NCBI RefSeq assembly: GCF_006716565.1
Contig: NZ_VFPG01000002.1
Span: 558,001-622,000 of the forward strand
DNA length: 64,000 bases
Direction: 5' to 3'
Source: Nocardia bhagyanarayanae
Lineage (GTDB): Bacteria > Actinomycetota > Actinomycetes > Mycobacteriales > Mycobacteriaceae
Shown in pieces: positions 7,917-13,535 of this stretch. The notes under the pieces are model-generated. The model was not told where the DNA came from. It made no database searches and was given only the letters and a program-made list of their open reading frames with translations. The translations under genes and the position numbers were made by a program. The first letter of the stretch is position 1. Every line of letters begins with the position of its first letter.

Positions 7917-9251
7917 ATGGTGGAACGTAAACCGCCGCGGCCCCGTCGGATCACCGAAGGCTCCTCCGAGCACGAGGTGTATCTGCCGACCGGTGCGCTC
8001 TCCCCGAACCGGCAGAACCGCGATCCGCTCCCGGACACGCTGCTCAAACGGGTGAAGCAGTTCTCGGGTCGGCTCTCCACCGAGGCGGTGGGGTCGATGC
8101 AGGATCGCTTGCCGTTCTTCGCCGATCTGGACGCCGCGCAGCGCGCGGGCGTCCAGATGCTGGTGCAAACCGCGGTGGTGAACTTCCTGGAGTGGCTGCA
8201 GGATCCGGACAGCGACATCCGGTTCAGCCTGGACGCCTTCCAAGTCATTCCGCAGGATCTGGCGCGGCGGCTGACGCTGCGCCAGACCGTCGACATGGTC
8301 CGCGTGGCCATGGAGTTCTTCGAACAGTGGCTGCCCGCGCTCGCGCGCAACGACCGGCAGCTGGTGGCGCTCACCGAGGCGGTGCTGCGATACGGGCGCG
8401 AGCTCGGTTTCGCGGCCGCCTCGGTGTACGCCAGCGCCGCGGAATCGCGCGGCGCGTGGGACACCCGCCTCGAGGCGCTCGTGGTGGACGCGGTGGTGCG
8501 CGGTGACACCGGCCCGGACATGCTCTCCAGGGCGGCGACACTGAACTGGGACGCCACCGCGCCCGCCACCGTCCTCGTCGGCACGCCGCCGGGGGAGCAG
8601 GGCGTCTCGTCCGTCGGTTCGGTGCACGCCATCGCGGCCCGGCACGGGCGCGCGGCGCTCGCGGTCGTGCAGGGCACCCGGTTGGTCATGGTGGTGAGCG
8701 GACATCTCGGCGACGCCGGATACGTCTCGCCGTTCCTCGCCGACCTGCTCGCCGAGGTGTTCTCGGACGGTCCGGTGGTCATCGGGCCGACCACCCGAAC
8801 CCTCGGTGCGGCGCACGCGAGCGCCGTGGAGGCGTTGGCGGGTATGGAGGCCGTGGTGGGCTGGCGCGGGGCGCCGCGGCCGGTGCACGCGGCGGAGCTG
8901 TTGCCCGAACGCGCTTTGTTGGGCGATCGAGGTGCGATCGACGCGCTGAACGAGTATCTTGTCCTCCCGTTGGCCGCCGCTGGATCGGCGCTCGCGGACA
9001 CCCTCGATGCCTATCTGGATTGCGGGGGAGCCGTAGAGACGTGCGCCCGTCAGCTGTACGTCCATCCAAATACCGTTCGCTATCGACTCAAACGGATCGC
9101 CGAGATAACCGGCCGGGATCCGATGAATCCGCGGGACGCCTACGTACTCCGGATCGCAGCAACGGTTGGTCGTTTGACACGAACGCGTAACGAATCGTCG
9201 ACTCCAAGCCCAGAGGTAACTCCGATCCCGATCGGTCACGAGGGCCTGTAA
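7917..9251 (+). CDS. mabR: PucR-family transcriptional regulator, MabR-like
   Basis: A 444-residue protein matching the M. tuberculosis MabR (Rv2242) in architecture and genomic slot, between aceE and fabD. MabR is known to regulate the FAS-II operon in response to long-chain acyl-CoA. The C-terminal 65 residues form the PucR-type helix-turn-helix (TLDAYLDCGGAVETCA... then VHPNTVRYRLKRI). The central part is the GGDEF-like/CdaR-type region. The start ATG lies 11 bases after the aceE stop, so it is probably co-transcribed with aceE. The likely target is the inverted repeat at 9293-9313 in front of fabD. The assignment rests on synteny and family; DNA binding is inferred. Confidence 0.88.
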   Translation: MVERKPPRPRRITEGSSEHEVYLPTGALSPNRQNRDPLPDTLLKRVKQFSGRLSTEAVGSMQDRLPFFADLDAAQRAGVQMLVQTAVVNFLEWLQDPDSDIRFSLDAFQVIPQDLARRLTLRQTVDMVRVAMEFFEQWLPALARNDRQLVALTEAVLRYGRELGFAAASVYASAAESRGAWDTRLEALVVDAVVRGDTGPDMLSRAATLNWDATAPATVLVGTPPGEQGVSSVGSVHAIAARHGRAALAVVQGTRLVMVVSGHLGDAGYVSPFLADLLAEVFSDGPVVIGPTTRTLGAAHASAVEALAGMEAVVGWRGAPRPVHAAELLPERALLGDRGAIDALNEYLVLPLAAAGSALADTLDAYLDCGGAVETCARQLYVHPNTVRYRLKRIAEITGRDPMNPRDAYVLRIAATVGRLTRTRNESSTPSPEVTPIPIGHEGL

Positions 9252-9292
9252 CGCCGAAGGGGAGTCGGTCGATCGGGACGACCCACGTGGGA

Positions 9293-9313
9293 TTTTGTGG
9301 GACCCCCACAAAA
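9293..9313. promoter_or_regulatory. Perfect inverted repeat upstream of fabD, probable MabR operator
   Basis: TTTTGTGGG (9293-9301) is repeated in perfect inversion as CCCACAAAA (9305-9313) around a 3-base centre. With one bulged A the symmetry extends to flanking GGG/CCC. It lies between the mabR stop and the fabD GTG, 66 bases before the latter. As I recall, the half-sites TTTTGT and ACAAAA correspond to the published M. tuberculosis MabR site, although a longer spacer is reported there; here the spacer is 9. There is no T run behind it, which argues against a terminator. Confidence 0.7.
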
Positions 9314-9379
9314 CCCATCGGCAAGCTTCATTCGCGCCGACATCTCGTGCGGCCGGGCTCACAGTGTTTTCTTAGAGGC

Positions 9380-10294
9380 GTGATCGCGTTGTTCGCCCCT
9401 GGACAGGGGTCCCAGACACCCGGCATGCTCGCGCCTTGGCTCGACCTTCCCGGCGCGAATGATCGCCTCGCCATGTGGTCCAAGGCCGCCGGCCTCGACC
9501 TGGTCCGTCTCGGCACCACCGCGACGGCCGAGGAGATCGTCGACACCGCCGTGACTCAGCCGCTTGTCGTCGCCGCCGCGCTGCTGGCGTACGCCGAGAT
9601 CGATCGAGATTCGCTTCCGGCCGCTACGATCGTCGCGGGACATTCGGTCGGCGAGTTCGCCGCCGCTGCCGTCGCCGGCGTGATCAGCTCCGACGAGGCG
9701 GTCACCCTGGCCGCCATCCGCGGTGCGGAGATGGCCAAGGCGTGCGCGCTGGAGCCGACCGGAATGTCCGCGGTACTCGGCGGCGACGAAGCCGCCGTCC
9801 TCGAACGACTCGCGGAACTGGACCTCGTTCCGGCCAACCGGAACGCGGTCGGCCAGATCGTGGCCGCGGGCAAGCTGGACGCCCTCGCGGAACTCGCCGC
9901 GAATCCGCCGGAAAAGGCGCGGGTTCGGGCGCTGTCCGTGGCGGGCGCCTTCCACACCGCGTTCATGGCTCCGGCCCAGGACGCGGTGGCGGAGGCCATC
10001 GCCAAGATCACGCCCAACGACCCGACCCGGGTGCTGCTGTCGAACTTCGACGGGCAGCCGGTCGCCTCGGGCAAGGACGCGATCGAAAAGCTCGCCGCAC
10101 AGGTCACCCGACCCGTGCGCTGGGATCTGTGCACCGAGACCGTCCGACAGGCCGGCGTCTCGGCGGTGGCGGAGCTGCCACCGGCCGGAACACTGGTCGG
10201 CATCGCGAAACGAGAGCTGAAGGGCACGCCGAACCTGGCGCTGAAAACCCCCGAGGACCTCCCCGCGTTGGCCGAACTGTCGACCTCCGGCTAG
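9380..10294 (+). CDS. fabD: Malonyl-CoA:ACP transacylase FabD
   Basis: Transfers malonyl from CoA to acyl carrier protein for FAS-II elongation of meromycolate chains. 304 residues, very close to M. tuberculosis FabD, beginning VIALFAPGQGSQTPGM. The nucleophile Ser89 lies in GHSVG, and the partner His lies in GAFHTAFMAP near residue 194. The GTG start is chosen by family length; an ATG 93 bases upstream would run through the operator-like repeat. First gene of fabD-acpM-kasA-accD6, and probably controlled by the mabR product. Confidence 0.96.
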   Translation: MIALFAPGQGSQTPGMLAPWLDLPGANDRLAMWSKAAGLDLVRLGTTATAEEIVDTAVTQPLVVAAALLAYAEIDRDSLPAATIVAGHSVGEFAAAAVAGVISSDEAVTLAAIRGAEMAKACALEPTGMSAVLGGDEAAVLERLAELDLVPANRNAVGQIVAAGKLDALAELAANPPEKARVRALSVAGAFHTAFMAPAQDAVAEAIAKITPNDPTRVLLSNFDGQPVASGKDAIEKLAAQVTRPVRWDLCTETVRQAGVSAVAELPPAGTLVGIAKRELKGTPNLALKTPEDLPALAELSTSG

Positions 10295-10418: not shown

Positions 10419-10718
10419 GTGGCCGCTCTGACCCAGGAACAAATCGTCGAGGAACTCGGCAAGATCATCGAAGAGGTCACGGGCATCGAGCCCTCCGAGG
10501 TGACGATCGAGAAGTCCTTCGTCGATGACCTGGACATCGACTCGCTGTCCATGGTCGAAATCGCTGTGCAGACCGAGGACAAGTACGGTGTGAAGATCCC
10601 GGACGAGGATCTGGCCAGCTTGAAGACGGTCGGCGACGCTGTCGCCTACATCCAGAAGCTCGAGGCCGAGAACGCTGACGCGGCCGCGGAGCTCAAGGCC
10701 AAGTTCGACGCCGAGTAG
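10419..10718 (+). CDS. acpM: Meromycolate-type acyl carrier protein AcpM
   Basis: Carrier of growing acyl chains in FAS-II. 99 residues, longer than ordinary ACPs (about 78) because of a charged C-terminal tail (AENADAAAELKAKFDAE), the hallmark of AcpM. The phosphopantetheine attachment site is Ser42 in the DSL motif within DLDIDSLSMVE. The GTG start follows AAGAAGGGAG with a suitable gap. It sits 124 bases after fabD and 9 bases before kasA. Confidence 0.97.
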   Translation: MAALTQEQIVEELGKIIEEVTGIEPSEVTIEKSFVDDLDIDSLSMVEIAVQTEDKYGVKIPDEDLASLKTVGDAVAYIQKLEAENADAAAELKAKFDAE

Positions 10719-10727
10719 GGCCGAAAA

Positions 10728-11978
10728 GTGACCACTCCTTCCACCTTGAACGGGAATTTCCCCAACGTCGTCGTAACGAGCCTGGCGGCGACCACGTCGA
10801 TCGCGGGCGACGTCGATGCGACGTGGAAGGGACTCCTCAACGGCGAGAGCGGCATCGACGTTCTCGAGGATTCCTTCGTCGAGGAATACGACCTGCCGGT
10901 CCGCATCGGCGGCCACCTGAAGGTCAACCCAGACACCCTGCTGAGCAGGGTCGAGATCCGTCGCATGGCCTATGTCGAGCGACTCGCGACCGTCCTCGGA
11001 CGCGAGGTGTGGAAGAACGCCGGCAGCCCGGAGGTCGACCCCGACCGTCTGGGTGTGGCGATCGGCACCGGTCTCGGCGGCGGCGACGCGCTGATCGACT
11101 CGGTCGACAAGCTGAAGAACGGCGGCTACCGCAAGATCTCGCCGCTCGCTGTTCAGATGGTCATGCCGAACGGTCCGTCGGCCTGTGTCGGACTCGAGCT
11201 GAAGGCCCGGGCAGGAGTGGTCACTCCGGTCTCGGCGTGCTCGTCCGGATCGGAAGCCATCGCCAACGCGTGGCGGATGATCGTGATGGGTGACGCCGAC
11301 ATGGTCGTCACCGGCGGCGTCGAGGGCTTCATCGACTCGGTGCCGATCGCGGCGTTCTCCATGATGCGGGCGATGAGCACGCGCAACGACGACCCCAAGG
11401 GTGCGTCGCGTCCGTTCGACAAGGACCGCGACGGCTTCGTCTTCGGCGAGGCCGGTGCGCTGATGACCATCGAGACCGAGGAGCACGCCAAGGCGCGCGG
11501 TGCCACCATCCACGCCCGTCTGCTCGGCGCAGGCATCACTTCGGACGGCTTCCACCTGGTCGCCCCGGATCCCGAAGGCACCGGCGCCGCCCGCGCGATG
11601 ACCCGCGCGATGCAGACCGCGGGCCTGTCCAAGCAGGACATCACGCACATCAACGCGCATGCCACCGCGACGCCGATCGGCGACACCGCGGAGGCGAACG
11701 CGATCCACAAGGCCGTCGGCAACCACCCCTCGGTGTACGCGCCCAAGTCGGCGCTCGGCCACTCGATCGGCGCCGTCGGCGCGCTCGAGTCCGTGCTGAC
11801 CGTGCTCAGCATCCGGGACGGCATCGTCCCGCCGACGCTGAATCTCGAGAACCAGGACCCGGAGATCGACCTCGACGTGGTGAAGGGCGAAGCCCGCCGC
11901 CAGGAGATCGAGTACGCGATCAACAACTCCTTCGGTTTCGGTGGGCACAATGTCGCGCTCGCCTTCGGTCGCGCATAG
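10728..11978 (+). CDS. kasA: Beta-ketoacyl-ACP synthase KasA
   Basis: Condensing enzyme that extends acyl-AcpM with malonyl-AcpM. 416 residues, the same length as M. tuberculosis KasA. The catalytic triad is Cys171 (PVSACSSG), His310 ([11 protein letters not shown]) and His344 ([10 protein letters not shown]); the C-terminal GFGGHN loop is also present. GTG start, 9 bases after acpM. Mycobacteria carry a second synthase, kasB, directly behind kasA; here a 15-bp hairpin and then accD6 follow instead, so KasA is the only condensing enzyme of the cluster. Confidence 0.97.
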
Positions 11979-12005
11979 CCGCACGACTGACTGCAACAAC
12001 GATCC

Positions 12006-12045
12006 CCGGTGGGGTCGGGCAACAGAACTGGCCCGACCCCACCGG
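12006..12045. terminator. Perfect 15-bp hairpin between kasA and accD6
   Basis: Positions 12006-12020 and 12031-12045 are exact reverse complements around a 10-base loop. The stem is very GC-rich (CCGGTGGGGTCGGGC) but no T run follows. It could be a processing site, a partial terminator or an mRNA stabiliser that lowers accD6 expression relative to kasA. It occupies the place where kasB stands in mycobacteria. Confidence 0.65.
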
Positions 12046-12101
12046 TGGTTCGACATACGCAGCCGCTGTTGCGGCACTCTCTTGATTGAGGAGAAAACGC
12101 G

Positions 12102-13535
12102 ATGACAATCGTGGCTCCCGCGTTTCAACCAGAAACTGCGACCGATCCGCGTGACCCGCTGGGCCGGCTCCAGCGTTTCTTCGATCCCGGCACGGTTCTC
12201 CCGCTACACCCGCGCGACAAGTCCGGCGTCCTCGCCGCGATCGGCGAGGTGGACGGCGTACGCACCGTGGCCTACTGCTCCGACGCGACCGTCATGGGTG
12301 GCGCGATGGGCGTCGAGGGCTGCAAGCACATCGTCGACGCGATCGACACCGCCATCGAGTCCGGCGTTCCCGTCGTAGGCCTCTGGCACTCCGGTGGCGC
12401 CCGGCTCGCCGAGGGCGTCGAGGCACTGCACGCGGTCGGCCTGGTCTTCGAGGCCATGGTTCGCGCGTCCGGTCTCGTTCCGCAGATTTCCGTGGTGCTC
12501 GGCTTCGCCGCCGGTGGCGCCGCCTACGGTCCCGCCCTCACCGACATCGTGATCATGGCCCCCGAGGGCCGGGTCTTCGTCACCGGCCCCGACGTGGTGC
12601 GCAGCGTGACCGGCGAGCAGGTCGACATGGCGACCCTCGGCGGTCCGGAGACGCACGGCAAGAAGTCCGGCGTGTGCCACATCGTCGCCGACGACGAGGC
12701 CGACGCGATGCACCGCGCCCGTCGCCTGGTGTCGATGTTCGCCGAGCAGGGCGAGTTCGACCTGAACGCCGCCGCGCACGGCGACATCGACCTGAAGGCG
12801 ATGCTGCCGGAGTCGGCCAAGCGCGCCTACGACGTCAAGCCGCTCGTGCACGAGCTGCTCGACAACGTCGACGGCGAGTCCACGTTCGAGGAACTGCAGG
12901 CCGGATACGCCCGCAGCATGGTCGTCGGCCTCGGCCGTCTCGGCGGCCGCACCGTCGGCGTGCTCGCCAACAACCCGCTGCGCCTGGGCGGCTGCCTGAA
13001 CTCCGAGAGCGCCGAGAAGGCGGCTCGGTTCGTGCGGCTGTGCGACGCGTTCGGCATTCCGCTGATCGTGGTCACCGACGTGCCCGGCTACCTGCCCGGT
13101 GTCGGCCAGGAGTGGGAGGGCGTGGTGCGCCGCGGCGCGAAGCTGCTGCACGCCTTCGCCGAGGCCCGCGTCCCGCGCGTCACCCTGGTGACCCGCAAGA
13201 TCTACGGCGGCGCCTACATCGCCATGAACGCCCGCTCGCTGGGCGCGACCGCGGTGTACGCGTGGCCGGGGTCCGAGGTCGCCGTCATGGGCGCCAAGGC
13301 CGCGGTCGGCATCCTGCACAAGAAGGCACTGGCCGCCGCTCCCGAGGAGGAGCGCGAGGCGCTGCACGAGCGGCTCACCGCCGAGCACGAGAAGATCGCG
13401 GGCGGCGTCGAGCGCGCCATCGCGATCGGGGTGGTGGACGAGGTCATCGACCCGGCCAAGACCCGCAGTGTCATCGCCGCCGCGCTGGCCGCCGCGCCCG
13501 CGCGCAAGAGTCACCACAAGAACATCCCGCTGTGA
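12102..13535 (+). CDS. accD6: Acyl-CoA carboxylase beta subunit AccD6
   Basis: Carboxyltransferase subunit that, together with an AccA-type biotin subunit encoded elsewhere, carboxylates acetyl-CoA (and propionyl-CoA) to malonyl-CoA for FAS-II. 477 residues with the two crotonase-like halves: GLWHSGGARLAEGVEALH and GFAAGGAAYGPA in the N domain, VPGYLPGVGQEW and KIYGGAYIAMN in the C domain. ATG start with GAGGAGAAAACGCG upstream. Last gene of the FAS-II cluster, as in M. tuberculosis, and followed by a strong terminator. Confidence 0.95.
   Translation: MTIVAPAFQPETATDPRDPLGRLQRFFDPGTVLPLHPRDKSGVLAAIGEVDGVRTVAYCSDATVMGGAMGVEGCKHIVDAIDTAIESGVPVVGLWHSGGARLAEGVEALHAVGLVFEAMVRASGLVPQISVVLGFAAGGAAYGPALTDIVIMAPEGRVFVTGPDVVRSVTGEQVDMATLGGPETHGKKSGVCHIVADDEADAMHRARRLVSMFAEQGEFDLNAAAHGDIDLKAMLPESAKRAYDVKPLVHELLDNVDGESTFEELQAGYARSMVVGLGRLGGRTVGVLANNPLRLGGCLNSESAEKAARFVRLCDAFGIPLIVVTDVPGYLPGVGQEWEGVVRRGAKLLHAFAEARVPRVTLVTRKIYGGAYIAMNARSLGATAVYAWPGSEVAVMGAKAAVGILHKKALAAAPEEEREALHERLTAEHEKIAGGVERAIAIGVVDEVIDPAKTRSVIAAALAAAPARKSHHKNIPL

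Follow-up and report, generated by a model that had tools for sequence, protein, structure and literature searches.

The inverted repeat between mabR and fabD in the window (the whole 64,000-nucleotide stretch of DNA analysed in this study) is, judged from its sequence, very probably an operator of the regulator MabR. The explanation that best covers the observations as a whole, and in which we have high confidence, is that the repeat serves MabR as operator for the fabD (FAS-II) operon, where a MabR dimer would bind and activate the operon in response to acyl-CoA. The operator reading rests on the sequence, conservation, spacing and position of the repeat, on its being nearly single-copy, and on the adjoining orthologous MabR; binding by MabR, activation and the acyl-CoA response are expected by analogy with published mycobacterial work.

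The repeat is real at 9290–9316. On the + strand it consists of the left half-site TTTTGTGGG at 9293–9301, the centre ACC at 9302–9304 and the right half-site CCCACAAAA at 9305–9313. Beyond the arms there is a mismatch at 9292/9314, followed by two G–C pairs at 9291/9315 and 9290/9316, and both of these outer pairs fit the extent given in the preliminary description. The repeat is held in a 128-bp gap that runs from the mabR stop codon (9249–9251) to the GTG start codon of fabD (9380), and the middle base of the centre is 77 bp upstream of the position at which that start codon begins.

The MabR recognition sequence of M. tuberculosis has been reported as 5'-TTTTGT(N)9ACAAAA-3' (PMC5541348; this paper and PMC11617747 are cited throughout from excerpts of their text), and in the 23-mer GTTTTGTTGGTTATATACAAAAA of PMC11617747, TTTTGT and ACAAAA are likewise 9 bases apart. 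The window repeat shares with the fasII operator of M. tuberculosis MabR (Rv2242) the half-sites TTTTGT/ACAAAA, the spacing of 9 and the place between mabR and fabD. The half-sites had been compared in the preliminary description to those of mycobacterial MabR, and they agree with the published sequence (PMC5541348). The two operators differ in the inner triplets, which are GGG and CCC in the window, where the 9-bp arms are perfect, and TGG and TAT in the M. tuberculosis 23-mer (PMC11617747). Exact half-sites arranged as an inverted repeat, the nine-base spacing, the location between mabR and fabD, and conservation, the last with exceptions, were all found. The proposal of a candidate MabR operator at this place is strongly supported at the sequence level by the half-sites, the N9 spacing, the conservation and the adjoining orthologous MabR. 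FasR of the Streptomyces coelicolor fabD operon is an orthologue with 42% identity to MabR, and the inverted repeats to which it is directed in the fasII promoter are described as highly similar (PMC5541348). A search of the literature, judged by titles and the starts of abstracts, found no paper on the mabR–fabD operator of Nocardia.

The exact motif TTTTGT-N9-ACAAAA is present as a single copy in the 7.56-Mb genome of the organism, at the fabD site, against a chance expectation of 0.007 calculated from base composition. The extended motif TTTGTRGG-N3-CCYACAAA, which was derived from the family and other-family alignments, also occurs once. Exact inverted repeats with an arm of 9 and a loop of 0–10 numbered 30 in the window (nested hits at one place being counted separately), compared with a mean of 10.3 in 12 first-order resamples, and the repeat before fabD is the only one among these 30 in which at least 5/9 of the arm is A/T. 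When up to 3 mismatches to the core motif were allowed, the window gave 1 match against 1.58 in shuffles, which is no excess. With up to 2 mismatches, the genome gave 12 forward matches and the reversed control also 12; a second operator or a regulon in this genome was therefore dropped, and the fabD site alone stands out. The mismatch-tolerant counts show no excess, and it is the exact match, together with the conservation seen in other genomes, that carries the case for the repeat. A number of about one site per genome points to direct action of MabR at a single promoter. In the excerpt of PMC5541348, consensus MabR sites are stated to be absent upstream of mabA-inhA and fabH.

The proposed check of conservation across genomes, carried out by name for Nocardia, found the N9 spacing conserved. 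The named-genome set comprised the best 80 of 486 matches, all of them from Nocardia and several species being present more than once; L303, one of the 85 loci of that comparison, was left out because no fabD was found. In these best 80 of 486 confirmed hits, N9 was the best spacing in 80/80 loci, the distance from the site to fabD was 65–66 bp in 80/80, and the outer TTTTGT/ACAAAA was exact in 77/80. The arms were perfect over at least 9 bases in just 17 of these 80 loci, so it is not the perfection of the arms that has been conserved. That the operator keeps its distance from fabD across loci supports the GTG at 9380 as the start of this gene.

In the same family, MabR was matched at E 1e-60 in at least 168 of 181 genomes. 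The 135 family loci were made up of 131 located by the position of MabR, the window's own included, and 4 located by a pattern hit (L173–L176). This set presumably covers Rhodococcus and Gordonia among other genera, and some of its genomes are also named genomes, so the family and Nocardia sets are not independent. An N9 score of at least 10/12 was found in 131/135 family loci, compared with 0.5 in shuffled regions, and in 127/131 after the four loci picked by pattern hit were removed. Below 10/12 were L092 and L137 (both 9), L170 (8) and L169 (7), of which the last two belong to genus g8 with its N8 spacing. L301 and L302, from two further genera of the family, were looked at separately from the 135 loci and scored 9/12 at 66 bp before fabD. 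In 109/135 family loci, the N9 site near fabD has no more than one mismatch to the extended motif, the inner GGG/CCC being conserved in part only. Seven family loci (L057, L058, L162, L164, L168, L171 and L172) had a distance of 78–81 bp; an in-frame start codon 12–15 bases upstream restores 65–66 bp, and their fabD may start there.

Across the 181 whole family genomes, with one mismatch allowed, the extended motif was found once in 137, twice in 1 and not at all in 43, and its reversed control was present in 8/181. Two of the matches were in genus g3 (G138 and G149), in whose 13 genomes no MabR appeared among the matches listed at E 1e-60. Therefore, a motif match alone is no proof of a MabR site, and a few of the matches are background. 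The match in G138 was rejected as an operator and taken as chance; it lies inside the open reading frame at 827–2215 of L177, which by eye resembles a peroxidase.

A true spacing variant was seen in genus g8. Both of the two genomes of this genus in the sample (G007 and G037) carry, once per genome, an N8 site of the form ATTTGTAGA-NN-TCTACAAAT, found in L304, L305, L300 and L169. By eye, it is at the usual place before fabD in both genomes, with L300 at 66 bp. L299, the locus of the other g8 genome, did not come out as N8, since an equally scoring chance match at N1 took precedence. The N8 site of genus g8 is a real variant, and this genus is the place to ask how spacing relates to the arrangement of subunits.

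The sample of the class contained 148 genomes, of which 120 had a MabR match; 10 of these were in the window's family, and 60 of the remaining 110 were used. Five of 197 loci (L177, L178, L184, L186 and L187) were left out because no fabD was found. In all 57 other-family loci with a recognisable fabD, the best hit of the extended motif was 63–67 bp before fabD. The mismatches to this 16-base motif ranged from 0 to 6, and 49/57 loci had no more than 3, compared with 0.1 in shuffled regions. L179 and L181, which we guess may be Streptomyces, carry TTTTGTCGGGGGTCCACAAAA at the operator. In 14/57 loci (e.g., L059, L060, L072 and L201), the mabR stop codon TAG is inside the operator (TTTGTAGG), which means that the operator and the coding end of mabR overlap there.

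The same letters could in principle act as an RNA hairpin, that is, as a terminator or attenuator of mabR and not as a DNA-binding site, and we give this a very slim chance. The repeat could fold into nine pairs with a 3-base loop, and 41 bases separate it from the mabR stop codon. In the family, formation of the outermost pair exceeds expectation (80 compared with 63.1 of 126), as does that of the pair at columns 6/14 in the other families (35 compared with 28.7 of 48), but a symmetric DNA site explains both figures equally well. Against a hairpin, the inner pairs show no co-variation in the family (paired and expected, 87/84.5, 103/102.5 and 111/111.3 of 126), and at most of the outer positions the base itself is invariant, which goes beyond mere pairing. 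A terminator-like site was not found in 9150–9450, nor was a T-run after the stem. The hairpin or intrinsic terminator was rejected because the stem has no T-run and the inner pairs vary uncompensated; these uncompensated pairs, the lack of a terminator-like site and the TAG within the operator in 14/57 loci favour a DNA-binding site.

If the repeat is bound by a protein, the protein might be a regulator other than MabR, for which we see a slim chance. There are more conserved blocks in the same promoter, so other proteins may bind there, and FadR has been suggested for fasII, although without conclusive in vivo evidence according to the excerpt of PMC5541348. However, it is for MabR that a recognition sequence with this half-site and spacing has been published, and after replacement the repeats no longer bound MabR (PMC5541348). 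The preliminary description had proposed MabR, holding at the same time that the spacing of 9 differs from a longer mycobacterial one and would imply a different arrangement of regulator subunits in this genus. The N8 sites show that the spacing can vary in genus g8, and nothing in favour of a genus-specific spacing was found for Nocardia. About 126/135 family loci have N9 as their best spacing (ties split), and the spacing published for M. tuberculosis is also N9 (PMC5541348, PMC11617747). The claimed difference is thus wrong, a subunit arrangement particular to this genus has no ground, and the genus-specific reading, being refuted by the published site, is left with practically no probability. 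With the claimed anomaly gone, the geometry of the operator is common to Nocardia and M. tuberculosis.

In our view, a MabR operator of this kind is most likely occupied by a MabR dimer, on half-sites of the form TTTTGTRGG-N3-CCYACAAAA that are separated by about one helical turn. From this upstream site, whose centre is 77 bp before the start codon, MabR would activate the fabD promoter, and the activation would respond to long-chain acyl-CoA in the way described for mycobacteria. Early work with overexpression pointed to repression and later work to activation (PMC5541348, PMC11617747); the direction adopted for the proposed mechanism is that of the later mycobacterial paper. Transcription of fabD would begin at the start codon or very close to it. 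For M. tuberculosis, we assume that the transcript start is the fabD start codon, from the arithmetic of a published probe and the first fabD codons. This probe has its reverse primer in fabD and reaches 33 bp past the transcription start (PMC5541348), a layout that suggests a transcript start at the start codon. The M. tuberculosis site is at -87 from the transcription start (PMC5541348), and the window repeat begins 87 bp before the fabD start codon (9380-9293). The M. smegmatis MabR site at -147 and the S. coelicolor FasR site at approximately -67 from the transcription start (PMC5541348) fit neither this layout nor one fixed distance to the transcription start, and the fixed distance holds to the start codon only.

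Conservation in the promoter was not limited to the operator. Alignment columns were counted from the operator start, with only loci whose site is 63–67 bp before fabD, which left 126/135 family and 48/57 other-family loci, thinned to 40 and 41 non-redundant sequences, respectively. Three further blocks were seen on the + strand of the window. The block CAAGCTTCAT is at 9322–9331 (family consensus cAagGTTCAT; columns 34–38 with T 100%, T 95%, C 85%, A 75% and T 85%), the block CGACATC is at 9338–9344 (columns 45–51) with its ACA in 40/40 non-redundant family sequences, and the block GTGTTTTCTT, just before fabD, is at 9364–9373 (columns 71–75 and 78–79 conserved to 92–100%, columns 76–77 to 60–70%). 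In the 40 family sequences, TTCAT (34–38), ACA (47–49, 100%) and GGTGTT..CT (70–79, less at 70, 76 and 77) were far above the null. The 41 sequences of other families were more weakly conserved outside the operator, with TT.GT at 34–38 and the single columns 43, 45, 53, 72, 73, 79, 81 and -14. A consensus scan of 9150–9450 gave no sigma-70-type promoter match. The block GTGTTTTCTT is possibly a -10-like element, and TTCAT, ACA and GGTGTT are candidates for a promoter element or the site of a second factor.

In a wider view, which we offer tentatively and rate at somewhat below an even chance, the mabR–fabD promoter could be a rigid module throughout the class, whether the bacteria have mycolic acids or not. 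Such a module would combine an extended half-site of 9 bp, TTTTGTRGG, with roughly one operator per genome and a distance of 84–88 bp (mostly 86–87) from the operator start to the fabD start codon. The family blocks TTCAT, ACA and GGTGTT would then show where a second factor binds or where the polymerase makes an activator-dependent contact, and the centre that is one base shorter in genus g8 would be a natural test of the dimer geometry. The known operator is sharpened by these data, in that the half-site runs inward as RGG/CCY, its position is nearly fixed and there is about one site per genome. This would aid the prediction of MabR/FasR sites across actinomycetes.

The gene mabR (7920–9251, + strand) encodes a PucR-type regulator of 443 aa with the Pfam domains HTH_30 at residues 358–414 and GGDEF_2 at residues 195–309. 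Compared with the solved domains of Rv2242/MabR, its product matched the C-domain 9f80 at E 5e-95 and the N-domain 9fb1 at E 2.1e-56. The C-terminal HTH, the GGDEF-like domain and the MabR N-terminal domain that define a MabR of the PucR family are all present. The closest named mabR genes among the best 80 of 486 matches, with 99% identity, are those of Nocardia lijiangensis, N. amikacinitolerans and N. xishanensis, which places the window in the genus Nocardia. Of 12 aligned MabR proteins, 10 share the HTH segment VHPNTVRYRL; in L301 and L302 it reads VHANTVRYRL, with A for P. In genomes of family f18 (e.g., G303, G318, G333 and G374), MabR matches as two separate pieces within a single open frame, a pattern that points to an insertion between the domains of the protein.

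A pyruvate dehydrogenase E1 gene precedes mabR. On the other side of the operator and on the same + strand are fabD, which encodes malonyl-CoA:ACP transacylase from its GTG start (9380–10294; Pfam Acyl_transf_1), an acyl carrier protein gene, acpM-like by position (10419–10718; PP-binding), a beta-ketoacyl-ACP synthase gene, kas-like by position (10728–11978; ketoacyl-synt and Ketoacyl-synt_C), and an acyl-CoA carboxylase carboxyltransferase gene, accD6-like by position (12102–13535; Carboxyl_trans). The M. tuberculosis operon is listed with both kasA and kasB in the excerpt of PMC11617747, whereas in the window (10728–13535) there is one ketoacyl synthase gene between the acyl carrier protein and carboxyltransferase genes.
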